This document shows, piece after piece, positions 1 through 40,176 of a stretch of DNA of 40,289 nt. The DNA is taken from assembly GCA_021781555.1 (NCBI GenBank), contig JAJXWQ010000031.1, positions 1-40,289 of the forward strand, written 5' to 3'. The stretch is from a bacterium (GTDB lineage Bacteria; Cyanobacteriota; Sericytochromatia; S15B-MN24; VGJW01). How positions within the stretch are numbered: position 1 is the stretch's first letter; each line of letters begins with the position of its first letter. The notes under the pieces are model-generated. The model saw only the letters and a list, made by a program, of their open reading frames with translations. It did not search any database and had not been told where the DNA came from. Made by a program: the position numbers and the translations under genes.

Positions 1-120
1 GAACGCTCTCCGGCTGCGGGCAAGCTGCTGCGCGGCTCGGCATTCGCGGTGGCGAGTTTTCTGGACAGGAGGGCTGCCGTCGGCGCGGCTGCTGGCGGTG
101 TTAGAGTGCTCCCGGTTTGA
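1..120 (+). CDS. Possible 3' end of a truncated gene (hypothetical)
   Basis: Frame 1 is open from the window edge to a TGA at 118-120 and reads as an Ala/Gly/Arg-rich tail containing KLLRGSAFAVASFLDRR. No start is visible because the gene would begin outside the window. The stop lies inside the palindromic repeat that begins near 101, so the repeat may have replaced the original end of the gene. Another frame is also open here and high GC gives long chance ORFs, so this is weak. No family is recognised. Confidence 0.25.
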   Translation, partial: ERSPAAGKLLRGSAFAVASFLDRRAAVGAAAGGVRVLPV

Positions 121-187
121 ATGGATCGAGCCCGATGAGTCAAACGGGGCCCGGTTGCGCAGCACAGCGACCGTGCGGAGGGACGGC
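101..187 (-). repeat. Interspersed palindromic repeat, copy R1
   Basis: Begins TTAGAGTGCTCCCGG and continues through the family core (GTCAAACGGGGCCCGG, then TTGCGCAGC). The distal arm is degraded compared with the other copies. Orientation is the same as the copy at 34688-34796 and opposite to those at 1738, 13814, 28637, 28730 and 40077. It lies between a possible gene end and the secreted protein at 319. Confidence 0.75.
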
Positions 188-2619: not shown

Positions 2620-3310
2620 GATTTTCCGCGTGGCGGCTGCCTGCCTGGTTGCAGTCGGATTGTCGGCTTGCGGGAGTGGATCCCCGTCAGGAACGACGGC
2701 GATCTCTTCGTCGCCCACTTTCGATCCGAGCGCTTATTCGGCTACCACTTACAACACCGGCTCCAGCGCGTCGAGTTACGGCACCTCCTACGGCTCGAGT
2801 TACGGCTCGACCTACGGCTCCGGTTCGTACTCGAGTGGCGTCCCCTCGGCCCTGACGTCGAGCACCGGGACCCCGGCCTCGGCGTTGCCGTGCAGCTCCA
2901 CTCCGGGCGTCGATCTCACGAACTCCAGCGGCTTGCCGACGGCCACGGTCCCAGGTGTGACCTCTTGCAGCGCGTCCGGTACCACCGGATCCTCGGTTGC
3001 CGGCGCTGGGACTTCCGGCACGGCGGCCGGCTTCTCGGCGTCCATCACCGGAACCCAGACGACCGGCCTGTTCACCAAGAGTGTCATCGGAGCGACGGTC
3101 CTGGTCACCAACAACGATTCCACCGAGGAATCCCACTACGTCATCGTCTCGTTCACGCGCAACAACGATGAAGTCGCGGTCGCTTACCACCTGGTCGATC
3201 TGACGCCCGGGGCGCAGCAGACGCTCGACTTCCCGGTTCCGACCGACTCCTCCGGGCGCTACATCGACGCCGACAACGCGCACGTCGAGGTCAAGGACAG
3301 CCTTCTCTGA
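2609..3310 (+). CDS. Lipoprotein with Ser-Tyr-Gly-rich stalk and C-terminal beta domain
   Basis: A 233-residue lipoprotein with lipobox VGLSAC. The ATG at 2609 overlaps the stop of the upstream gene (2617-2619), so it is probably translationally coupled. Residues ~45-80 carry repeated SYG-type units (SSYGTSYGSSYGSTYGSGSY), an unusual flexible stalk; a second Ser/Gly/Thr linker follows. The C-terminal domain (GATVLVTNNDSTEESHYVIV, then VAYHLVDLTPGAQQTLDFPV) looks like an FxLYD-type beta sandwich, a family often found in envelope lipoproteins. The domain call is inference. It pairs with the preceding gene as a likely two-gene lipoprotein unit. Confidence 0.8.
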   Translation: MVSKIFRVAAACLVAVGLSACGSGSPSGTTAISSSPTFDPSAYSATTYNTGSSASSYGTSYGSSYGSTYGSGSYSSGVPSALTSSTGTPASALPCSSTPGVDLTNSSGLPTATVPGVTSCSASGTTGSSVAGAGTSGTAAGFSASITGTQTTGLFTKSVIGATVLVTNNDSTEESHYVIVSFTRNNDEVAVAYHLVDLTPGAQQTLDFPVPTDSSGRYIDADNAHVEVKDSLL

Positions 3311-3408
3311 GCCTGGCCCGCGGCCCCCTTCTCGAGTTAGCCGCGCCCGCGATCAGCGCCCGCCGGGAGCCCGGGGGACGGATGGATCGGTCGGCCCAGG
3401 GGTAAAAG

Positions 3409-12844: not shown

Positions 12845-13816
12845 ATGGACCCAAGCCGAAGTCGAACCGCCGAGCGGCTCGCCTCCTTGGGGGGCGCGGC
12901 GATCCTCGTGGTCTGGGCCCTGGAGCGCGGGTATCTCGTGCGCTCGGCGGCCGGCGTCGGCCTTGCCGTCTTGCTGGTCGGGATCCCGATCGCCATTCCA
13001 GCCGCCTGGAGCTGGCTCGGACACCTTCTGGCGGGCCGTGGCAGCCACCCGGTAGGAAGCCAGCGCGGCATCGAGCGGACGATCGAAGAAAGGCTTCCGC
13101 CCGACGCCGACGAGGCGGATCGCCGGATCGTCCACAAGGCGATCGCGTTCTCGGGCAAGACCGTGGGCGAGGTGATGATCCCGCGTCCGGATATGGTATC
13201 CGTCCGGGCTGACGCTCCGCTCGACGAGATCTTCGAGATCGCTGGCCGGACGGCCCATACCCGCTTGCCGGTATTCGAGGGGGATCTCGACCACATCCTC
13301 GGCTTCGTCCATGCCAAGGACCTCCTCAAGCTCGCGCACCGTTGTGATCAGGAGCCCACGGCTCGCGAGCTGATGCGCCCGGTCATGGTGGTTCCCGAGA
13401 ACAAGGGCATCAACGACATGCTGCGGGAGTTTCAGCAAAACAAGACGCACATGGCGATCGTGTTCGATGAGTTCGGCGGCACTGCGGGCATGGTCACGAT
13501 CAACGATCTCCTGGAAGAGCTGGTGGGCGAGCTCTTCGACGAATGGCGGGACGCGGGGCCCGACGTGGAGTCGCTGGGCGACGGCGCCGTGCGGCTCAAC
13601 GGGCGCGTGGCGATCGATGATGTCAACGAGCGCTTCGGACTCGCGCTGCCGAACCACGAGTTCAACACCGTGGCGGGCCTGATCTTCGGTCAGCTGGGGC
13701 GGACGCCTTCCCCCGGGGACGAGGCCGAGATCGATGGCGTGCGGTTCCGGGTCGAGGCCACCAACGGTCGGCGGGCCACGCAGATCGTCATGCGAGCGGT
13801 CCCGGCCGGCCCTTAG
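12845..13816 (+). CDS. CBS-domain CorC/HlyC-family protein, short membrane part
   Basis: A 323-residue protein beginning immediately after the rimI stop. Residues ~15-65 hold two hydrophobic helices (GGAAILVVWALERGYL and GVGLAVLLVGIPIAIPAAW). The rest is soluble: a TVGEVMIPRPDMVSV segment followed by two CBS repeats (~100-215; MAIVFDEFGGTAGMVTINDL ends the second) and a CorC_HlyC domain (~235-320; VRLNGRVAIDDVNERFGLAL). Full CNNM/CorC transporters carry a longer DUF21 membrane domain, absent here, so this is the hemolysin-C/CorC short form linked to magnesium or cobalt efflux and to envelope roles. Its TAG stop coincides with the edge of repeat R3. Confidence 0.88.
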   Translation: MDPSRSRTAERLASLGGAAILVVWALERGYLVRSAAGVGLAVLLVGIPIAIPAAWSWLGHLLAGRGSHPVGSQRGIERTIEERLPPDADEADRRIVHKAIAFSGKTVGEVMIPRPDMVSVRADAPLDEIFEIAGRTAHTRLPVFEGDLDHILGFVHAKDLLKLAHRCDQEPTARELMRPVMVVPENKGINDMLREFQQNKTHMAIVFDEFGGTAGMVTINDLLEELVGELFDEWRDAGPDVESLGDGAVRLNGRVAIDDVNERFGLALPNHEFNTVAGLIFGQLGRTPSPGDEAEIDGVRFRVEATNGRRATQIVMRAVPAGP

Positions 13817-13885
13817 GTCTTTTGCAGTTTGAACGGGGCCCTCTGCGCGGTCGCTTCGCTGCGCAACCGGGCCCCGTTCAAGCTG
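13814..13885 (+). repeat. Interspersed palindromic repeat, copy R3
   Basis: TAGGTCTTTTGCAGTTTGAA opens the element, and its TAG is the stop codon of the CBS protein. Then comes CGGGGCCCTCTGCGCGGTCG, loop CTTC, and the returning arm GCTGCGCAACCGGGCCCCGT. The outer arms GAACGGGGCCC/GGGCCCCGTTC pair perfectly. The right-hand part seen in R1, R5, R6 and R7 (CTCGGGCCCGATCC...) is missing, so this is a short form. Confidence 0.85.
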
Positions 13886-24968: not shown

Positions 24969-24980
24969 TCGCAGTTGGAC

Positions 24981-26153
24981 ATGTCGTTTATGAACAACCC
25001 CGGGGGCGGCGGCGCCGACCTCTGGGGGACGAGCGACGCCGGCGGGGACGACGCGACTCTCAACGACCTGCTGGCGCTGTACCAGTCTGGATCCGACATG
25101 CCTCCCCCCTTTGCTCCCCTGGCCGATCCTGCCGGCCTCGGCGAGGGGTTGCCCGATCCCGGGGCCACGGGCGGTTCGGTCGATGCCGAGATCGACGAGC
25201 TGATCAAGAGCTTCCAGGAGGCACCGGCTGTCTTCGCGCCCGTTCCGCAGGCCGCGCCTGCGATGCCACCGGCGATCGAGCTCAGCGTCGATCCGCTTCC
25301 CGCGGCGGCTCCGCCGCTGGCACCCGCCTTCGGTGCCCCCGAGGCCGTCACCCAGCCGCAGGCCCCGGCCTTCGAACCACCGGCGGGACTCCGCCCACCG
25401 GTTCCTCCCGCACCGCCGCGGCCGTCCTTCGACGTGTCGGTGCCGCCGGCCCCGCCGCTGCCCACCTTCGAGGCTCCGGCCCCTCCGGCTCCGCCGCTGC
25501 CCACCTTCGAGGCCCCGGCCCCTCCGGCTCCGCCGCTGCCCACCTTCGAGGCTCCGGCCCCTCCGGCCCCGCCGCGGCCCACCTTCGAGGCACTGGCCCC
25601 TCCGGCTCCGCCGCGGCCGGCGTTCGAGCCTGCCGCCGCGGTCATGCCGCCCGCTCCCCCGCGTCCGGCTTTTGAACCAGCAGCCGTCGTGGCGCCGCCA
25701 TCCTCGCTGCCCCAACCCACGAGTTTCGAGGACCTGATCCAGTCCGTCGTGCCGGCGACCGAGACCCCGGCGCGGCCGCTTTCCACCATCAGCGTCGCAC
25801 CGTTGCGGCCCGCGCCGTCCAAGGCGGTCGTTGCCAGCAGCGGGGCCGTACCGGCACTTCCCGCGGTCGACGTCGGATCCTCTCGCCAGCGCCTGGCTCT
25901 GGCTCAGCAGCTGACCGAGGTCATCGCCAACCTTGCCGGGGGCATCGATCGGGTCCAGTCCGAGCTAGACCAGCTTTACTCGACTCTCGCTCAAGCTGCC
26001 TCAAAGCGCGCACCGGTCGAGGAGATCCTCGAGACGACCCAGGCTCTTTCGGATACCAAGGCCCGCGTGGGAGAGGGCTCCGAGCTCTTCCAGCAGGCGC
26101 TCTTGCTCAAGGCGGTCGGGGAGGCCTACACCGAGCTCCTGCGGTCGATATAA
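24981..26153 (+). CDS. Proline-rich repeat protein of unknown function
   Basis: About 390 residues (TTG 24975 is also possible). Three parts are visible. Residues 1-~85 are acidic and helical (NDLLALYQSGSDMPPPFAPL; DAEIDELIKSFQEAP). Residues ~90-265 are a Pro/Ala-rich stalk with five 13-residue units of type PAPPAPPLPTFEA. Residues ~290-390 form a helical bundle with coiled-coil character (LAQQLTEVIANLAGGIDRVQ, ALSDTKARVGEGSELFQQAL). No signal peptide or membrane helix is seen, so it is probably cytoplasmic. Proline-rich stalks with a helical end suggest a spacer or adaptor; no function can be assigned. Confidence 0.75.
   Translation: MSFMNNPGGGGADLWGTSDAGGDDATLNDLLALYQSGSDMPPPFAPLADPAGLGEGLPDPGATGGSVDAEIDELIKSFQEAPAVFAPVPQAAPAMPPAIELSVDPLPAAAPPLAPAFGAPEAVTQPQAPAFEPPAGLRPPVPPAPPRPSFDVSVPPAPPLPTFEAPAPPAPPLPTFEAPAPPAPPLPTFEAPAPPAPPRPTFEALAPPAPPRPAFEPAAAVMPPAPPRPAFEPAAVVAPPSSLPQPTSFEDLIQSVVPATETPARPLSTISVAPLRPAPSKAVVASSGAVPALPAVDVGSSRQRLALAQQLTEVIANLAGGIDRVQSELDQLYSTLAQAASKRAPVEEILETTQALSDTKARVGEGSELFQQALLLKAVGEAYTELLRSI
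25443..25628 (+). repeat. 39-bp tandem repeat inside the proline-rich gene
   Basis: CCCACCTTCGAG recurs at 25461, 25500, 25539 and 25578, exactly 39 bp apart. A diverged unit follows at 25617 (CCGGCGTTCGAG). The first units are nearly identical and the last ones diverge, as in slippage arrays that keep the reading frame. The size is in frame (13 codons). Confidence 0.9.
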
Positions 26154-28618: not shown

Positions 28619-28636
28619 GGTGTGTACCTTTTGAGT

Positions 28637-28726
28637 CTGAACGTGTCCCTCTGCGCGGTCGCTTCGCTGCGCAACCGGGCCCCGTTTGACTGCTCGGGCC
28701 CGATCCTTTCCGGGGCGAAAGCACTC
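28637..28726 (+). repeat. Interspersed palindromic repeat, copy R5 (tandem unit 1)
   Basis: A 90-bp unit starting CTGAACGTGTCCCTCTGCGC and ending CGGGGCGAAAGCACTC. It has the family hairpin plus the CTCGGGCCCGATCC right part. It is followed by TAG and then an identical unit. Confidence 0.9.
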
Positions 28727-28729
28727 TAG

Positions 28730-28819
28730 CTGAACGTGTCCCTCTGCGCGGTCGCTTCGCTGCGCAACCGGGCCCCGTTTGACTGCTCGGGCCCGATCCT
28801 TTCCGGGGCGAAAGCACTC
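28730..28819 (+). repeat. Interspersed palindromic repeat, copy R6 (tandem unit 2)
   Basis: By direct comparison all 90 bases equal those of R5; the units are offset by 93 bp. It lies in the divergent region between the CYTH gene and the methyltransferase. The short string CTCGGGTGGGAGCC just after it recurs near 28925. Confidence 0.9.
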
Positions 28820-31157: not shown

Positions 31158-32405
31158 ATGTCCGCTGGAACGTTGAAAAAGTTCATCCGCGTGGGGTTTG
31201 CGGCCCTGCTTGCCCCGAACCTTGCCAGCTGCGCGCTGCAGGCCATCGCGCCGCAGACCGGGTCGGTGGCCCACGAAGACGTGATCTCGAACGCATTCGG
31301 CCTGCTCTCCGACACGCTGGTCGGCGCGACGGGCAGCGGAGATCTGGCGTCGATCCAGGCGTCCCCCAGTTTTCACGTCCAGGATGTCCTTTCGGGCAAC
31401 ATCTATCACGGCACGTTCGTGATCGCAGCCGGCTGGGACTATACTCGGGCTTTCGTGGGGGGCCTGTCGTGCGCGGCCTGTCACGGTGGCGACAGTCCGA
31501 CAGAGGTCAGTCCAAACCTCCGGGCTCCGAACTGCTTCGCCTGCCATGGCGGCGGCCCGGATGGCGGGCCCTTCCACCCGCCGGGCTGGATGGATCCCGA
31601 CAGCATCTTCTTTCACGGAGAACTGGTCAGAGAGGCCGGCTACGACTACACGGCCGCGATCGCCCTTCCCGGCTCGCTGACCTGCGCCGCCTGCCACGCG
31701 GGGCTCGACCCCCAGCAGGTCAGTCCGAATACCCGAGCCCCGAGCTGTTTCCAGTGCCACGGTGGCGGGCCGGACGGAGGCGCCGGACATCCGACCGGCT
31801 GGATGGAGATGACCAGCCCCTACTTCCACGGCAAGGCCGTGAACCTGGCCGGGTTCGACGGTACGGCCGGCAACATGCGGTGCAGTGCTTGCCACGCTGG
31901 CTACAGCCTGCACGACGTCAACACGAACTCGCGCGCCCCGAGCTGCTATGCCTGCCATGGCGGCGGCCCCAGCGGCCAGCCCGCGCACCCTGTGGGCTGG
32001 GACAACCCCTTCAGCCCTCTCTTCCACGGAGGGTTCGTCGCTGCGGCCGGTGGTGATTTCACCAAGGCCGTCGCTTTGCCGGGCTCGCTGACCTGCAACG
32101 TTTGCCATGCGGGGTTCAGCCCCAAGCAGACGAGTCCGGTGTCGACCGCCCCGAGCTGCTACTCCTGCCATGCCGGTGGGCCCGGCGAGGGACCTGCCCA
32201 TCCGGCCGGGTGGCTCGATCCCAGCAGCCCGCAGTTCCACGGCACGGTGGTCCAGGCCGCTGGCTGCGACTTCAGCAAGGCGGTCGCCTCGCCCGGAACT
32301 CTCACCTGCGACTCGTGCCATGCGGCGACCACGGCGGATCCCAGTCCCAACAAGCTCGCGCCGCAGTGTTCCTCCTGCCACAACCCGCCCCCTTGCACAC
32401 CCTAG
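31158..32405 (+). CDS. Modular multiheme c-type lipoprotein (10 CxxCH)
   Basis: A 415-residue lipoprotein with GGAGAG before its ATG and lipobox NLASC (Cys ~25). It carries ten CxxCH heme sites (CAACH, CFACH, CAACH, CFQCH, CSACH, CYACH, CNVCH, CYSCH, CDSCH, CSSCH). These sit in about five copies of a ~70-residue diheme module: FHG...AG-DYTKA...LTCxxCHAG-SPxQxSPNxRAP, then CxxCHGGGPDGGxxHPxGW. Extra conserved His residues (FHG and HPxGW) may be the second axial ligands. The last module is cut short. Ten covalently bound hemes on an anchored protein suggest electron transfer at the cell surface. The next gene carries the same module, so the two probably work together. Confidence 0.88.
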   Translation: MSAGTLKKFIRVGFAALLAPNLASCALQAIAPQTGSVAHEDVISNAFGLLSDTLVGATGSGDLASIQASPSFHVQDVLSGNIYHGTFVIAAGWDYTRAFVGGLSCAACHGGDSPTEVSPNLRAPNCFACHGGGPDGGPFHPPGWMDPDSIFFHGELVREAGYDYTAAIALPGSLTCAACHAGLDPQQVSPNTRAPSCFQCHGGGPDGGAGHPTGWMEMTSPYFHGKAVNLAGFDGTAGNMRCSACHAGYSLHDVNTNSRAPSCYACHGGGPSGQPAHPVGWDNPFSPLFHGGFVAAAGGDFTKAVALPGSLTCNVCHAGFSPKQTSPVSTAPSCYSCHAGGPGEGPAHPAGWLDPSSPQFHGTVVQAAGCDFSKAVASPGTLTCDSCHAATTADPSPNKLAPQCSSCHNPPPCTP

Positions 32406-32417
32406 GAGCTCGTCTCG

Positions 32418-34019
32418 ATGCGTTCCTCGAAACTAGCCTGGCTCTGGCGCTCGCTGGCCATCGCCACCCCTGGACTGATCGTGGCTGGCCTCGCCAGCTG
32501 CCAACGCCCCTCGGATCTGGCGGCCTATTCCATCCATCCGCCGTCGTGGATGAACCCCGCCAGCTCCGGCTTCCATGGCACCGTCGTCGCCCAGTCCGGT
32601 TACGACTATTCCAAGGCCAAGTTCGAGGGGGTGACCTGCTCCACGTGCCACGCGGGCAAGAGTCCGACCCAGGTGAGCCCCCTGAAGGCGGCCCCCAATT
32701 GCTTCTCCTGCCACGGGGGAGGTCCGGACGGGTCTGCGGGACACCCGGTCTGGTGGGCCGATCCAACCCACCTCGGATATCACGGGGCGGCGGTCATCGC
32801 TGCGGGTTACGACTACACGCGAGCCATTCCGCCCGGCAACGCCCTGACCTGTTCCGATTGCCACGCGGGCGTGAGCCCGGCGCAGCCGAGCGTCAATCCG
32901 AACGCTCCCAACTGCTTCACCTGCCACGGAGGCGGGCCTGACGGATCCGCCGGACACCCGCCTGGCTGGGCGGTCCCGACGGCGCCGGTATTCCATGGCG
33001 CATTCGTCGTCGAGGCCGGCTGGGACTACACCAAGGCCGTGCCGCCCGGGAGCCTGATCACGTGCTCGGGCTGCCACGGGGGGATGAGTCCGACCGAGCC
33101 GGGCCTCAACTCGCGCGCCCCGAACTGCTTTGCCTGCCACATCGGCGGGCCGGATGGCGGGGCCGGTCACCCGCCGGGCTGGGTGACGATACCGGACTAC
33201 GGCGAGATCGCGAGCCCCATTCCAACGCCCAGTGCTCCGGTCATCTCGGCTTACCGCCTGATCGCGCCGACCCAGGTGTACGTGGGCGACACCGTCGTGC
33301 TCAAGGTGGAGAAGATCATGTCCGACGGTTCGACGGAGTCGCTGCCAGGGACAGCCGAGGTCGACTTCGTCGGCCCCCAGACCGTGGCCGCGACTGACAA
33401 CGACACCCTACCCCCGGCCAACGCCGCCACCCTCCTGGCCACGGACTCGACGCCGACCGGTTTCTTCGTCGTGAACCCGGTGCGTTACGATCACAGTGCC
33501 GACCTCAAGCACAAGCTGTTCACCAACGGCCTGGTCACGGGCAATGGCAGCGTCACGGTCAGCGCGGCGATCTCGGGCCTGGGGCTCCAGGACGGGGTAT
33601 CGTCCCCGCTCACCATCTCGATCGGTCCGTTGCCCCCCGGCAACACCGCCAACGGCCAGGCGCAGTACGCCGCCAACTGCGCCCAGTGCCACGGCACGAC
33701 CGGCCAGGGCTGCACGATACAGTCGATCTTCGACAACTCTCCGGCCATCACCGATGTCGGGGTGCCCGGTCTCGATGCCACGAGCCCGGGAGGATCCCCC
33801 AACCTGGCTGCCGATCCCGGGTGGAACGCGGCGCTGCTGGCGTTTGCCTCCCGTGCGGACGTGGATAACAGCGGGATCATCCTCAACTTGCCGATGCCGA
33901 ACTGGCTCAGCATGCCGGCGGCCGACGGGCACTACCTGACCATGCAGGACTTCGCCGACATCTATGCCTGGCTGCTCACGCAGACGACCGGTGTCGGCGG
34001 CTGTCCCATTCCGCAATGA
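32418..34019 (+). CDS. Multiheme lipoprotein with three diheme modules and a C-terminal cytochrome domain
   Basis: A 533-residue lipoprotein (lipobox GLASC, Cys 28), 12 bp after the previous gene. Three ~70-residue modules at ~40-255 have CSTCH/CFSCH, CSDCH/CFTCH and CSGCH/CFACH with GGGPDGSAGHPxGW (the last one is CHIGGPDGG). A beta-rich middle follows (~270-395; ISAYRLIAPTQVYVGDTVVL; VSAAISGLGLQDGVSSPLTI). The end is a class I cytochrome c-like domain with NCAQCHGTTGQGC at ~422 and MQDFADIYAWLLTQ, for seven hemes. The middle could be an Ig-like spacer holding the terminal heme away from the array. It seems a longer homologue of the previous gene with a different end. Confidence 0.88.
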   Translation: MRSSKLAWLWRSLAIATPGLIVAGLASCQRPSDLAAYSIHPPSWMNPASSGFHGTVVAQSGYDYSKAKFEGVTCSTCHAGKSPTQVSPLKAAPNCFSCHGGGPDGSAGHPVWWADPTHLGYHGAAVIAAGYDYTRAIPPGNALTCSDCHAGVSPAQPSVNPNAPNCFTCHGGGPDGSAGHPPGWAVPTAPVFHGAFVVEAGWDYTKAVPPGSLITCSGCHGGMSPTEPGLNSRAPNCFACHIGGPDGGAGHPPGWVTIPDYGEIASPIPTPSAPVISAYRLIAPTQVYVGDTVVLKVEKIMSDGSTESLPGTAEVDFVGPQTVAATDNDTLPPANAATLLATDSTPTGFFVVNPVRYDHSADLKHKLFTNGLVTGNGSVTVSAAISGLGLQDGVSSPLTISIGPLPPGNTANGQAQYAANCAQCHGTTGQGCTIQSIFDNSPAITDVGVPGLDATSPGGSPNLAADPGWNAALLAFASRADVDNSGIILNLPMPNWLSMPAADGHYLTMQDFADIYAWLLTQTTGVGGCPIPQ

Positions 34020-34687: not shown

Positions 34688-34796
34688 CTTAGAGTGCTCC
34701 CGGCTTGAATGGATCGAGCCCGATGAGTCAAACGGGGCCCGGTTGCGCAGCGAAGCGACCGCGCAGAGGGCCCCGTTCAAACTGCAAAAGGTCTAG
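34688..34796 (-). repeat. Interspersed palindromic repeat, copy R7 (most complete)
   Basis: CTTAGAGTGCTCCCGGCTTG, then ATGGATCGAGCCCGATGAG, the hairpin arms CAAACGGGGCCCGG and CCCCGTTCAAACTGCAAAAG, ending GTCTAG. Both ends carry CTAGA/CTTAGAG-like termini in inverted orientation. The AGGAGG ribosome site of the downstream kelch gene (34795-34800) overlaps the last bases of the element. Confidence 0.9.
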
Positions 34797-34808: not shown

Positions 34809-36698
34809 CTGGCCGTTCGTCTGGCTTGGCCCTGGGCCGTCGTTCTGGCGCTGATCGGTGCGGTCGGATGTGCCCGCAGCGCACCTTCGGCCTGGTCAGC
34901 GAGGACCCCGGCGATGGCGGCCGGTCGACCCGGCGTCGAGCTGGTGCTGCCCGCGCAGAAGGCGCCGGGAGCGCCCCTGGGCGTCTCGCGGGCCGTGCAG
35001 GCTGTCGTCGCAGTCCCGCAGACCTACGCGGTCTCGTTCGCCGCGGCCGATCTGCCCACGCCGATCCTCGCGACGGTATCGGCGGGTTCCTCGTCCCAGA
35101 CGCTCGCGATCCCGGACGTGCCCGCGGGGGTCAATCGGGTGATCACGGTCCAGGGCGAGGACGCCACGGGCAACCCCGTTGCCGGCGCGGCCTGGATGGC
35201 GGTGGCATCCTTCGTCCAGCCCACCACCCAGGTCGATCTCGACGCCGGATCGACCGCCGTCGGGAGGGCCTTCGCCCGCTGGCTGCAAACGGGCGAGGAT
35301 CAGCTGGCGGAGACCGCGAGTCCAAGCGTGGTCGCACGGAGTCTCGACGCGATCATGAGCGCCAATCGCTTGCCGCACTACAGTTTCGTCGACGCGGCCT
35401 CGTGGGCAGATGCCGTGGCGAAGTCGGCGGGGAACATGGACGTCGGCACGGCGTTCATGACGCAACCCGCCGAGGTCGACGTCACGCTGCAGGGCGTGCC
35501 GGACGACGCCCCTGCCACGCTCTGGGTCGACGATCCGGCCTCTCCGGTACAAACGGGGCTGGCGCCCGCAACGAGTGAAACCGAGACCTTCGCCGTAGCT
35601 CCGGTGACGCCCGGATCGTGGACGGCCTGGGCATCGGTGCCCGGCCTGGGGCTTGCCAGCGCCAGCGTGACGGTCTCGGCCGGTGGCTCGGCATCCGTGA
35701 CGATCGCCTTCCCGGGCTGGACACCGGGGCCAGCGCTGCCCGTGCCGACAGGAAACGCGGCCGTGGCCACCGATGGCCGTTATCTCTACGTGGTGGGCGG
35801 GGTGCTCGAAGGTGGGGCCGAGACGGCCTCGTGCTGGAAGCTCGATACCCAGGCGTCGTCGCCCGCGTGGACCGCCCTACCTGCGCTGCCGCCCCAGGCC
35901 GAGGCTCGGGAAGGTGCTGCTGCCGCCGTCCTTGGCAGCACGCTCTATGTGGTCGGCGGGACCGGCGGCGGTATGGATTACGACGATGCCTGGAGTCTCG
36001 ATCTCACGTCAAGCTCTGCATCCTGGGCGCCCCTGAACGGGGCGAGCGCACCGAATTTGGATTTCCAGGCCCACCCCACCGTCCCGATGGCAGCGATCGC
36101 TTCGGGAAGCGATCTGCTCGCCCTGTGGACCTTCTTCGACGATATTCCGGCTCCCCCCTTTGCCGCGAGCCATTTCGCAAGTTTTGACCCCGGAACGGGC
36201 TTCTGGACTTACGATCCCGCGACCCTGCCAGCCATGCGCACCCCCCGGAAGCGGGCCGGCGTGGCCGTTTTCGACGGCGCGCTCGTGGTCGCCGGGGGCG
36301 ATCGCGAGGCGGTCGAACAGGGGGTCGCCGGGCCCGGCACCACGCTCCCGGCGGTTGCCACCGTCGAGGCGCTCACCGGGGGAAGGTGGACCGCCTGGCC
36401 CGATCTTCCTGCCGGGCGATCGGAGCTGGCCTTGGCCCAGGCGGGGAACTCCCTTTACGCCGCCGGCGGAGTGACGGCTGACGAGGTGCCCGTGACGGAC
36501 GTCTACCGCTACGATCCGTCCCTCGGCGAGTGGCTGCCGGCGCCCCCGCTGGGCACGGCGCGGTCGTCTTTCGGCTTGCTGTACGTCGGGGGGCGCCTCT
36601 GGGCGATCGGGGGTTCACCGGCCCACCAGTTCAATCAGACGGCCTACGGCTCGGCCCTGGCGCTCGCGTCGGTTGAAACCTTGCAGGTGTCGCCGTGA
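34809..36698 (+). CDS. Kelch-repeat lipoprotein, probable CTG start
   Basis: 629 residues if translation starts at CTG 34809, 8 nt after AGGAGG (34795-34800). No ATG, GTG or TTG in frame lies between that site and the lipobox. This start gives MAVRLAWPWAVVLALIGAVG followed by Cys21, a fine lipoprotein signal; ATG 34914 would discard it. Residues ~60-290 have beta-sandwich and helical parts (FAVAPVTPGSWTAWASVPGL). From ~300 on there are kelch blades with GG turns (DGRYLYVVGGVLEGG, GSTLYVVGGTGGGMD, DGALVVAGGDREA, NSLYAAGGVTADE, GGRLWAIGGSP). A beta propeller exposed on the envelope is expected, with roles in sugar or protein binding. It starts a four-gene lipoprotein run. Confidence 0.8.
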   Translation: MAVRLAWPWAVVLALIGAVGCARSAPSAWSARTPAMAAGRPGVELVLPAQKAPGAPLGVSRAVQAVVAVPQTYAVSFAAADLPTPILATVSAGSSSQTLAIPDVPAGVNRVITVQGEDATGNPVAGAAWMAVASFVQPTTQVDLDAGSTAVGRAFARWLQTGEDQLAETASPSVVARSLDAIMSANRLPHYSFVDAASWADAVAKSAGNMDVGTAFMTQPAEVDVTLQGVPDDAPATLWVDDPASPVQTGLAPATSETETFAVAPVTPGSWTAWASVPGLGLASASVTVSAGGSASVTIAFPGWTPGPALPVPTGNAAVATDGRYLYVVGGVLEGGAETASCWKLDTQASSPAWTALPALPPQAEAREGAAAAVLGSTLYVVGGTGGGMDYDDAWSLDLTSSSASWAPLNGASAPNLDFQAHPTVPMAAIASGSDLLALWTFFDDIPAPPFAASHFASFDPGTGFWTYDPATLPAMRTPRKRAGVAVFDGALVVAGGDREAVEQGVAGPGTTLPAVATVEALTGGRWTAWPDLPAGRSELALAQAGNSLYAAGGVTADEVPVTDVYRYDPSLGEWLPAPPLGTARSSFGLLYVGGRLWAIGGSPAHQFNQTAYGSALALASVETLQVSP

Positions 36699-36708
36699 AG
36701 GCGTCCGG

Positions 36709-36999
36709 ATGAAGGCGATGGCGGTCCTCGGACTGGCGGTCGGCCTGGTTTCCGGGTGTCCGGACCATGTGACCCGCAGCGCGGCAGCGGGCTCGGTCGC
36801 CAGTCAGGGTACCAGCACCGAGCCTGGCTCTTTGCGACCTACCACCGGTCCCACGTCTCTGGCCAGCCCGGGCTGCTCGCCGAGCGCGGCGCCGTCATCC
36901 ACCCCTGGTTCCGCGCTCGCGGGTTCGCTCCAGGTCACCCTCGACGGGTCGATCCTTCCCACCCCGGCAGGCGCTGCGGGGCCGGAGGCCACGCCATGA
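36709..36999 (+). CDS. Small Ser/Pro/Thr-rich lipoprotein
   Basis: A 96-residue protein. ATG 36709 leads to a signal with lipobox GLVSGC (Cys ~17), then a low-complexity Ser/Pro/Thr/Gly stretch and a short strand-like end (GSLQVTLDGSILPTPAGA). Its stop (36997-36999) overlaps the start of the next gene (36996) as ATGA, so the two are coupled. No ribosome site is obvious. It could be the remnant of a larger protein. Confidence 0.6.
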   Translation: MKAMAVLGLAVGLVSGCPDHVTRSAAAGSVASQGTSTEPGSLRPTTGPTSLASPGCSPSAAPSSTPGSALAGSLQVTLDGSILPTPAGAAGPEATP

Positions 37000-38537
37000 T
37001 GCGGCCGTGCAGCCAGCGGATTCGCCGCCGGGGGGCGAAAGACCGAGCCGGCCGCTCGGGATCGGCTCTCGGGATCATGGTCTTCGGGATCCTGGCGCTG
37101 GCTGGCTGCACGGGCGGCGTCGGGGCGTCCGGGACGGCGGCATCCGCGGGCGTTGCGGGAGGTCGCCTGGATGTCCACATCGAGGCCGCGCCCGCCGTCC
37201 AGGCCCTCCAGGCGGCGATCGCCGACGTCAAGTTCGCCATCAGCGGGCTCGACATCCCGGCCGGGACTCCTGTCGTGGACGTACCCCGGGCGGCCTTCCA
37301 GTCGGGAGCTGCCGTGGCCCACTGGGATGACCTCCTGCCCGGTCCGGTGGAGCTCCAGGCGCAGGTCTTCGACTCCGCGGGCGATGTGCTCGCCCAGGCC
37401 TCGGGAAGCGCGACGATCGTCGCCGGCCAGACGGCCCAGCTGGCGCTTTCGGTCGTTCCGGAGGCAGGCTCGCTGCAGATCTCGGCGGATCTGACGGCCT
37501 TCGCCCAGCCCGCCAGCTTGAGCCTGTCCTTCGGGGGCGTGCCGCCCCATTCCTGGCAGGAGCAGTCGCCGCTGGCGATCGCGCAGATCGACCCCTCGGC
37601 CGTCCTCCTTGACGGGACGCTGTTCCTGGTGGGCGGGGACTTCAACTACGAGTTCGAGCGCTATGATTCCGGCGCGCAGACCTGGTCGGCCGAGCTCTAC
37701 CCCGAGGATTCCACCACCGAGACGCTGCTCGGCCAGGCGGGGGTGCTGGGCGACCGGATCGTGGTCGTCGGTCGGGATCTCGAGGCCCTCGGGATGCCAG
37801 AGGACGCCTCGCCGGTCTTTCTCGACCCCTTTGCCCAGCCGGCGATCCTCGAGGAGCCGGCGCCGGCTGCGAACCTCAACCTCGCGGATTTGCAGTCGCC
37901 TCGCACCGCAGTCGGTGTGGCCTCCGATGGCCAGACCCTGTACATGGTGGGCGGGACCAGCAAGCGCAACGTGAAGGGCAGTAGCGCCTACGTGTACGTC
38001 ACCTTGGGGTTGCTCGAGACGCTGTCGGACTCCACCATGCAGTGGGAAGTCAAGGATCCGATGCCGACCCCCCGAGCCAGCCTCGGTGCGGCTCTGCTCG
38101 GGGGCAAGCTGTATGCGGCCGGGGGATTCCAGTGGACCGGCACCGCGGCGACCGATCCGGTCCTGAACCAGCCCGGAGTCACGGCTGCCAGCGCGCAGAT
38201 GACCCCGACCGGCGCGTTCGAGGCCTACGATCCTGCGACCGATGCCTGGACCCAGCTTCCGGCCATGCCGACCGCACGCTACGGACTCTCGCTCGTCGCG
38301 GCTGGCGGTCGCCTCTATGCGATCGGGGGCACCGATGCCAGCTCGTCCGCGCTTGCCACGGTGGAGTCCTACGATCCAGCCAGCGGGACCTGGCGTACGG
38401 AGCCCTCGCTGCCGGTGGCCCGCTCGCTGGCCGGGGCGGTCGCCCTCGGCGATCAGATCCTCGTGGCGGGTGGCGTAGGAGCGGATGGCCGGGCCTTGCG
38501 ATCGGTCGAGGTGTACAACACGGAGCCGCTGCCGTGA
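36996..38537 (+). CDS. Kelch-repeat lipoprotein
   Basis: A 513-residue lipoprotein with a basic N-terminus (RIRRRGAKDRAGR) and lipobox ALAGC. Residues ~50-175 form a beta-sandwich-like domain (GGRLDVHIEAAPAVQALQAA, GPVELQAQVFDSAGDVLAQA). After that come kelch blades with YMVGGTSK, GKLYAAGGFQWTG, GGRLYAIGGTDASS and DQILVAGGVGADG. The layout equals that of the kelch lipoprotein at 34809, so the two are probably paralogues. Its GTGA end overlaps the protease start at 38534. Confidence 0.85.
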   Translation: MMRPCSQRIRRRGAKDRAGRSGSALGIMVFGILALAGCTGGVGASGTAASAGVAGGRLDVHIEAAPAVQALQAAIADVKFAISGLDIPAGTPVVDVPRAAFQSGAAVAHWDDLLPGPVELQAQVFDSAGDVLAQASGSATIVAGQTAQLALSVVPEAGSLQISADLTAFAQPASLSLSFGGVPPHSWQEQSPLAIAQIDPSAVLLDGTLFLVGGDFNYEFERYDSGAQTWSAELYPEDSTTETLLGQAGVLGDRIVVVGRDLEALGMPEDASPVFLDPFAQPAILEEPAPAANLNLADLQSPRTAVGVASDGQTLYMVGGTSKRNVKGSSAYVYVTLGLLETLSDSTMQWEVKDPMPTPRASLGAALLGGKLYAAGGFQWTGTAATDPVLNQPGVTAASAQMTPTGAFEAYDPATDAWTQLPAMPTARYGLSLVAAGGRLYAIGGTDASSSALATVESYDPASGTWRTEPSLPVARSLAGAVALGDQILVAGGVGADGRALRSVEVYNTEPLP

Positions 38538-40054
38538 GGACTCGCGGGGAGCGCTCTCGAGAGCCGGGCGGCGCCCGTTTTTTTGACCGGGCGACGATCG
38601 CGGCTTTCCGGCCACGAACCATCGCAGGCAGCGGGGCCGTCACCGCCTTGCTGGCCACCTTGCTGTATGGTTGCGCCGTGGCGCGGCCGGGCCTCCCGGT
38701 CCCGGTGGCTGGCTACTCGGCCGGGTCCCCGTCGGCCCTGGCTGGCAGCGCGACCGGATCCTCGGCTGCCGGCTCCCCGCTCTTCGCCGATCGCCCACCC
38801 GTCACGCTCGGCACGACGTCCGGGGTCGCCCACGCCATCATCGTCGAACTCGACGGTACCGCCAGTCCACCGGTGGATCTCGGGCCCTACGGCAGTGCGA
38901 CGGTGCTGGGCGAGGTCGACTTTTCACATCGCTACGTGCTCCTGGGACTCAACGACGCGACGGCCGATCCCGATGCGGCCGCTCCTGCAGTGGCACGGCT
39001 GGCCGGTGTGCTTTCCGCCCAGCCCGATCGCGTGGTCCACATGCAGTCGGCCCCTCCCACCGACGACCCGCTGCTGACGACCCAGTGGTCGTACGGGCCG
39101 GAGGTCGCGAACGTCTATGGCGAATGGTCCGTGCTCGGTGCCCTCGGAGGCACCACCGTGGCCAGCACGACCGTCGCGGTCCTCGACACGGGCGTCGATC
39201 CCGGTCATCCCGACCTGCAGGTGTTGCCTGGGTTTGACGCTACGAAGCAGCTGACGAGCGGGCAGAACGTGGCGACCGGCTCCTTCGATCCCAGCGCCGA
39301 GGACCACGGTACCGCGGTTGCCGGTGTGATCGGGGCCAGGAAGAACAACGGCATCGGTGCCGCCGGCATCATCCCCGGCGCGGCGATCCTCCCGATCAAG
39401 ATCTCGGGACCCGCCAACACCGCCACCGATTTCGACATCCTGCAGGGCCTGTCGATTGCCGGCTACTACGGTCGCTCGGATTCGCCCTATCCCAACCTCG
39501 TCGATCCTGCCGGCACCAAGGTGCGTGTCGTCAATCTCAGCTTCGGCGGGGGCTTCGGCGTGTCGGCCGCCTATGACGATGCCTTCAAGTTCCTGCACGA
39601 TCGCGGCATCGTGACGACCGTTGCGGCCGGCAACGACGGCGGTCCCGTGGAGATGCCGGCGACGAGCCCGTGGTGCATCGCGGTCTCGGTCACCATGCAG
39701 TACCTCGGCTTCGAGATGCTGACCCCGTACTCGGATCATGGCCCCCAGATCTGGGTGAGCGCTCCGGGCAACTACATCTGGACCACGGCGGAGGGCACCA
39801 ACGGCAATTACACGAACGCCTACCAGCTCTTCAACGGAACCAGCGCGGCGGCTCCCTTCGTGGCCGGGGTCGCGGCGGCGATCGACGCGGTCTATTCGCC
39901 GAACGATGGCAGCGAGGACTCCGGCGCCTGGGCGGATCGCGTGAAGAACCGCCTGGCGCAGACGGCCGATGACCTGGGTGCGCCGGGTTTCGATGACCTG
40001 TACGGCTGGGGCCGGGTCAATGCAGCCAGGGCCGTCACGGGGGCGCTCCCGTAG
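38534..40054 (+). CDS. Subtilisin-like (S8) serine protease lipoprotein
   Basis: 506 residues from GTG 38534, which overlaps the previous stop by GTGA. The N-terminal signal is long and basic and ends in lipobox LLYGC (Cys47). Then come a Ser/Gly linker and a likely inhibitor-type propeptide (~95-165; HRYVLLGLNDATADPDAAAP, VARLAGVLSAQPDRVVHMQS). The catalytic domain has Asp218 (VAVLDTGVDPGHPDL), His258 (EDHGTAVAGVIGARKN), the oxyanion Asn (VAAGNDGGPVEMPA) and Ser437 (FNGTSAAAPFVAGVAAAI). All catalytic residues are intact. A membrane-held secreted protease beside kelch and cytochrome lipoproteins could process surface proteins. Confidence 0.93.
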   Translation: MRTRGERSREPGGARFFDRATIAAFRPRTIAGSGAVTALLATLLYGCAVARPGLPVPVAGYSAGSPSALAGSATGSSAAGSPLFADRPPVTLGTTSGVAHAIIVELDGTASPPVDLGPYGSATVLGEVDFSHRYVLLGLNDATADPDAAAPAVARLAGVLSAQPDRVVHMQSAPPTDDPLLTTQWSYGPEVANVYGEWSVLGALGGTTVASTTVAVLDTGVDPGHPDLQVLPGFDATKQLTSGQNVATGSFDPSAEDHGTAVAGVIGARKNNGIGAAGIIPGAAILPIKISGPANTATDFDILQGLSIAGYYGRSDSPYPNLVDPAGTKVRVVNLSFGGGFGVSAAYDDAFKFLHDRGIVTTVAAGNDGGPVEMPATSPWCIAVSVTMQYLGFEMLTPYSDHGPQIWVSAPGNYIWTTAEGTNGNYTNAYQLFNGTSAAAPFVAGVAAAIDAVYSPNDGSEDSGAWADRVKNRLAQTADDLGAPGFDDLYGWGRVNAARAVTGALP

Positions 40055-40057
40055 GGT

Positions 40058-40082
40058 AGCCGCGGCGGCTCGAGCCTTTTTT
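40058..40082 (+). terminator. Possible terminator after the protease
   Basis: AGCC (40058-40061) can pair with GGCT (40067-40070), and GGCTCGAGCC follows directly before TTTTTT (40077-40082). The stems are short but the T run is good. The T run also forms the left edge of repeat R8. Confidence 0.4.
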
Positions 40083-40150
40083 AGCTGAAACGGGTCCCTC
40101 TGCGCGGTCGCTGCGCTGCGCAACCGGGCCCCGTTTGACTTCCAGGCGAA
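40077..40150 (+). repeat. Interspersed palindromic repeat, copy R8
   Basis: TTTTTTAGCTGAAACGGG, then TCCCTCTGCGCGGTCGC, the returning arm GCTGCGCAACCGGGCCCCGT and TTGACTTCC. Orientation is plus. It has one extra A in the left arm compared with other copies and lacks the CTCGGGCCCGATCC right part. Confidence 0.85.
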
Positions 40151-40176
40151 ACCGGTCTAAAGGCAATGCCACTGAA

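Follow-up and report, generated by a model that had tools for sequence, protein, structure and literature searches.

Two adjacent genes in a 40,289-nucleotide stretch of DNA from a bacterium of the class Sericytochromatia (henceforth termed the window) encode lipoproteins rich in CxxCH heme-binding motifs. They raise the question of whether one small diheme unit has been multiplied into a chain of hemes, whether such a chain belongs to a known cytochrome family, and where it would deliver its electrons. A sequence-only reading had proposed a linear heme wire built by duplication of a unit of about 70 residues that matched no named family. If the wire reading is right, the locus would represent a further natural design for a long heme chain made from one small repeated unit, which would be useful to protein-wire design, and would point to a non-photosynthetic branch of the Cyanobacteriota that exports electrons. 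Within the one literature library searched, Sericytochromatia and extracellular electron transfer were not found in combination.

Two lipoproteins built from one diheme unit

The two proteins, here termed P1 and P2, are encoded by adjacent open frames with a 12 bp gap between the P1 stop and P2, and are probably co-transcribed (Table 1). The earlier span of 31158-33200 began at the correct position but stopped short of the end of P2 at 34019. Translation places exactly ten CxxCH motifs in P1 (aa 105, 126, 176, 197, 242, 263, 313, 334, 384, 404), six in the repeats of P2 (aa 74, 95, 145, 166, 216, 237) and one more at aa 421, which confirms the original count of 16 repeat heme sites plus one in a cytochrome tail. 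Lipoprotein anchoring, also claimed from the outset, is borne out by an LASC lipobox that, as read from sequence, is present in P1, P2 and both orthologues from a second species of the same genus. The middle region of P2 may possibly form a beta-sandwich domain, judged by its sequence; in the OmcZ precursor, beta-sandwich domains follow the heme part (PMC9473688). The small monoheme cytochrome c encoded downstream is a candidate electron shuttle to P1 and P2. Two Kelch-repeat proteins and a subtilase (window 34914-36698, 36756-38537 and 38042-40054) follow the cytochromes.

Table 1. Features of the window, with positions counted from its first nucleotide.
Feature	Position	Strand	Remarks
P1, decaheme lipoprotein, 415 aa, five diheme units	31158..32405	+	lipobox LASC (Cys25)
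P1 unit 1, aa 73-139	31374..31574	+	FHVQD with conserved H73, without HPxGW
P1 unit 2	31575..31787	+	unit profile match
P1 unit 3	31788..31985	+	lead shortened by 5-residue deletion; unit profile match
P1 unit 4	31986..32198	+	unit profile match
P1 unit 5 (last)	32199..32402	+	ends CSSCHNPPPCTP; unit profile match
P2, heptaheme lipoprotein, 533 aa	32418..34019	+	lipobox LASC (Cys28)
P2 unit 1	32535..32741	+	unit profile match
P2 unit 2	32742..32954	+	unit profile match
P2 unit 3 and closing HPPGW	32955..33182	+	unit profile match
P2 middle region	33240..33620	+	no Pfam match
P2 C-terminal class I cytochrome c domain, one CAQCH	33648..33983	+	PF00034, 36.1 bits, E 1.7e-8, aa 411-522
Small monoheme cytochrome c, 120 aa	34065..34427	-	PF13442 2e-9, PF00034 3.4e-9
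Copies of the CCCTCTGCGCGGTCGCTTCGCTGCGCAACCGGGCCCCGTT-core repeat	101-182 (-), 1744-1841, 13814-13878, 28629-28726, 28722-28819, 34689-34795 (-), 40075-40175		

The repeats are real: translation and a unit profile both yield eight units, five in P1 and three in P2, each of 66-71 residues when cut at HPxGW. Their common register is HPxGW-x8-His(FHG)-x17-22-CxxCH-x16-CxxCH, followed by GGPDGG; the FHG element reads [FY]HG, and a His-free GxDYTKA lead precedes the first CxxCH. The strict spacing noted earlier holds, with heme-motif starts 21 residues apart in seven of the eight units and 20 in the last unit of P1. Likewise, the His of HPxGW lies 13 residues ahead of that of FHG in all window units bar P1 unit 1, in which H73 of FHVQD sits 11 residues ahead of the FHG His. 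The sequence-only reading had let the unit begin at FHG. We place the natural start at HPxGW instead, because HPPSW precedes the first FHG of P2 and P1 ends without a terminal HPxGW.

An alignment of 13 units that includes another genus showed 46-63% identity to the first unit. Invariant in all 13 are H1, H14, G15, G22, C37, C40, H41, A55, P56, C58, C61, H62, G64, G65, P66 and H72, which take in both heme motifs and the His-Gly of FHG. Beyond the CxxCH motifs, P1 holds 12 His for its ten hemes (five in FHG, four in HPxGW, H73, H39 and H252), and P2 offers three FHG and four HPxGW His for its six repeat hemes, counting those before unit 1 and after unit 3. Two conserved spare His per two hemes match what all-bis-His ligation would need, a fit and not a proof, and the extra His are in this sense consistent with the role in heme ligation first suggested for them. 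Across three species, the FHG His is kept in 25 of 25 units and the HPxGW His in 23; the two exceptions are P1 unit 1 of the window and its counterpart in the second species of the genus, each with H73 two columns away.

A known heme pair within a block of its own

To place the unit among described cytochromes, we compared it with family models and structures. Both PF14537 and PF14522 (Cytochrome c7 / Cytochrom_c3_2) score above their cut-offs of 25 and 24.8 bits over whole proteins (67.0 and 57.4 bits for P1, 40.7 and 35.0 for P2), and all 13 units match weakly when taken alone. What is shared is the CxxCH-x16-CxxCH heme pair: the matches span about 30 residues per unit, with best stretches at profile positions 6-34 of 79 and 38-66 of 67, respectively. 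In c7-type domains, the lead before the first CxxCH is FxHxxH, whereas in P1 and P2 it is the His-free GxDYTKA, with HPxGW and FHG further upstream holding the spare His, and no full c7/c3_2 domain with FxHxxH distal ligands was found in either protein. The whole unit is spanned by no Pfam, NCBIfam or PDB entry, and its His-bearing half is matched by no model. The initial statement that no named family fits therefore stands for the whole unit but not for its heme pair.

The pentaheme subunit ActA of alternative complex III resembles the units in the 21-residue spacing of its first heme pair, but is not a tandem diheme repeat and carries an FxHxxH lead. Profile comparison of the units with ActA-type heme pairs gave a probability of 95.8%, which collapsed to 0.2% once CxxCH residues were masked, indicating that it is the heme motifs that make the two alike. 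The GSU1996-type tandem c7 proteins of Geobacter (nanowire_3heme, TIGR04257) also string heme domains along one chain. GSU1996 comprises four tandem triheme domains with linearly arranged hemes 3-5 A apart and has been proposed to act as a capacitor (PMC10138318). It differs in being periplasmic and in its triheme domains, in which one heme is His-Met ligated; P1 and P2 carry lipoprotein anchors, and each of their units combines two hemes with four His. TIGR04257 matched neither protein at E values up to 1, and a protein from the other genus only weakly (23 bits, cut-off 40 bits).

MtrC is a decaheme lipoprotein as well, and the MtrC/MtrF domain II/IV model PF22113 (cut-off 30 bits) is passed by P1 (34.9 bits) and failed by P2 (18.1 bits). 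The OmcA/MtrC model TIGR03507 reached 13.6 bits against a cut-off of 209.3, and the MtrB-type porin that partners MtrC/OmcA has no counterpart in the window's genome. Many c hemes per chain are also found in OmcS, OmcE and OmcZ, which are polymers of one subunit; none of these filament chains appeared among PDB sequence matches up to E 10. The equivalog families ExtM, HmcA, DmsE and CctA were rejected as all far under cut-off, and no NrfB-like family member was found in the window's own genome. We class P1 and P2 as a variant of tandem multiheme cytochromes that combines a c7-like heme pair with a ligand module of its own and that falls outside the GSU1996, OmcA/MtrC and OmcS/E/Z families. The heme-pair core belongs to a known type; what lacks a named family is the whole block with relocated His.

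Distribution of the unit

A profile of the units, as suggested with the sequence-only reading, recovered all eight at E values of 5e-38 to 9e-29 and had no further match in the window's own genome. Since these eight units built the profile, independent support comes from other species, namely eight units in a second species of the same genus (E down to 1e-35) and nine matches in another genus (E down to 1.8e-29), both outside the profile. Within the class, three of 18 genomes carry matches, all in the window's own family (three of five family genomes). Among 396 genomes from the phylum of a Vicinamibacteria record, 21 yielded matches, which scored 21-27 bits and lay around the heme pair. Those of the matching proteins that were read lacked the HPxGW-FHG lead and were ActA-like or of other multiheme types; we rejected them as relatives.

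No relatives of P1 were found in IMG/VR or plasmids, nor any of the unit alignment in IMG/VR. Thirteen IMG/VR matches to the DNA pattern HPxGW-x7-FHG were inspected, none of which read as a cytochrome frame. A scan of GTDB genome contigs with P2 as the only query, which reaches close relatives only, returned the same-genus record JAJYIO010000016.1 and one 26%-identical multiheme protein.

These searches bear on the possibility that P1 and P2 belong, as ordinary members, to a tandem diheme group that has been described before, for instance from Desulfuromonadota or Myxococcota, a reading that concerns novelty and is compatible with a wire function. HPxGW-type multiheme repeats occur in bacteria of this kind. 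The profile covered the own class, a phylum sample and the 396 genomes, with IMG/VR addressed by short patterns, a minority of phyla that does not take in the ones with the most multiheme cytochromes. That the unit is uncovered by Pfam, NCBIfam and PDB models speaks against such membership, which we consider possible though short of probable.

Conservation and history of P1 and P2

In the second species of the genus, the orthologues of P1 and P2 are 86% and 81% identical and keep the same gene order, with a methyltransferase upstream and the monoheme cytochrome (82.5% identity, same place) and first Kelch gene (86% identity) downstream. The dN/dS ratios of P1 and P2 are 0.18 and 0.21 by NG86 and 0.11 and 0.09 by YN00, which shows purifying selection on both genes. 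In a tree of 25 units, those of the two same-genus species pair one to one with their counterparts, which dates the duplications before the split of these two species; deeper nodes are weakly supported. Together with the unit alignment and spacing, the tree supports unit duplication as the origin of the arrays, as first proposed.

The other genus encodes a protein with 16 CxxCH motifs and seven FHG units, a two-unit second protein (positions 2800-3354 of its contig, L023) and a third with six CxxCH motifs and CarboxypepD_reg domains; their lipoboxes, read by eye, are VVAC, LLAC and GPAC. One heme site of the second protein reads CYAYH instead of CxxCH, reflecting either decay or an assembly error. 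These heme proteins adjoin a SCO1/SenC gene. The tail of P2 was not found in L023, where a CarboxypepD_reg-like domain occurs instead, which makes the diheme array the conserved core, with a variable tail.

Respiratory context and proposed function

PsaA/PsaB were detected in 10 same-phylum genomes and in none of the 18 from the window's class (39 genomes searched), which places the genome in a non-photosynthetic class of Cyanobacteriota. Its draft is 98.65% complete in 181 contigs. Neither COX1 (PF00115) nor bd oxidase subunit I (PF01654) had a match in this draft, in a search for terminal reductases that covered the heme-copper and bd oxidases. One contig (C117) encodes a pentaheme c7-type protein, a molybdopterin-type frame, NrfD and ActD, which we read as an alternative complex III set. 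A second c7-like frame and a neighboring molybdopterin-type frame sit on a further contig (C68). In published members of this branch, alternative complex III is accompanied by oxygen reductases (PMC6349859), and a member that has the complex without a detected oxidase therefore deserves explanation. With the complex III set and a cytochrome c assembly protein present and no heme-copper or bd oxidase detected, quinol electrons probably exit another way.

We propose that P1 and P2 serve as a membrane-anchored tandem-diheme wire or capacitor with bis-His hemes, placed between the complex III route and a periplasmic or external acceptor, a reading we hold to be probable on balance. Both proteins arose by tandem duplication of one diheme unit, in which each CxxCH binds its heme covalently and supplies the proximal ligand. 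The two distal ligands would most likely be the His of HPxGW and FHG, rendering, by their count, all 16 repeat hemes bis-His. At about 35 residues per heme and with a regular repeat, the hemes may be closely packed in a row, and P1 and P2 could each serve as a short wire for electrons or as a capacitor, in analogy to the triheme-repeat protein GSU1996. Electrons would pass from quinol via alternative complex III and a soluble monoheme c to the diheme arrays and on to an acceptor. The downstream monoheme cytochrome, the c domain of P2 or both would make up the monoheme step, and the presumed final acceptor may lie in the periplasm or outside the cell, with the direction of flow likewise conjectural. 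We infer the linear geometry and the ligand assignment from motif order and spacing; AlphaFold models of P1 and P2 from shallow tiled-unit alignments (mean pLDDT 35.6 and 30.3) were both discarded as too low in confidence for heme-heme distances.

A rival reading takes P1 and P2 as a periplasmic electron store and shuttle for a soluble or membrane reductase, with nothing leaving the cell envelope. An MtrB/PioB porin was found in none of six genomes tested, including the window's own, leaving an outer-membrane route without a candidate, and P1 and P2 may on this account be periplasmic. The class I cytochrome c end of P2 is typical of docking with periplasmic partners, and the nearest working precedent, GSU1996, is itself a periplasmic protein described as a capacitor (PMC10138318). 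The anchors of P1 and P2 may point the other way. They lack Asp at the +2 position, and in a Lol-type diderm its absence from a lipoprotein would favor the outer membrane. We regard purely periplasmic storage as rather unlikely. It is highly improbable that the repeats hold fewer hemes, with some CxxCH motifs or extra His being structural or metal-binding in a scaffold and not a wire: the degenerate CYAYH motif and the missing HPxGW His of P1 unit 1 would fit, but all other CxxCH motifs are kept across the three species, and each of the three module-bearing genomes encodes the cytochrome c assembly protein.

A bolder version of the wire proposal, in which a lineage-specific tandem diheme wire with its distal His moved to HPxGW and FHG would be the main respiratory exit to extracellular acceptors, replacing oxygen reductases in this non-photosynthetic cyanobacterial sister lineage, strikes us as quite doubtful. 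The relative from the other genus has four heme-copper oxidase family matches in addition to the module, which argues against the module as a simple substitute for oxygen respiration.

Other repeats in the window

A dispersed 60-90 bp repeat with the core CCCTCTGCGCGGTCGCTTCGCTGCGCAACCGGGCCCCGTT occurs on both strands of the window, mostly in intergenic positions and with one pair in tandem. The core is also present on two other contigs of the genome and was not found on the same-genus contig that carries the orthologues of P1 and P2 (L022). A stem-loop is predicted for the repeat, at a stability not clearly better than that of shuffled sequences (z -1.74). A 39-bp tandem array (window 25359-25670) lies within the coding sequence at 24975-26153 and encodes proline-rich PPAPPxPTFEAPA repeats; the orthologue of this gene in L022 contains an array of different composition.
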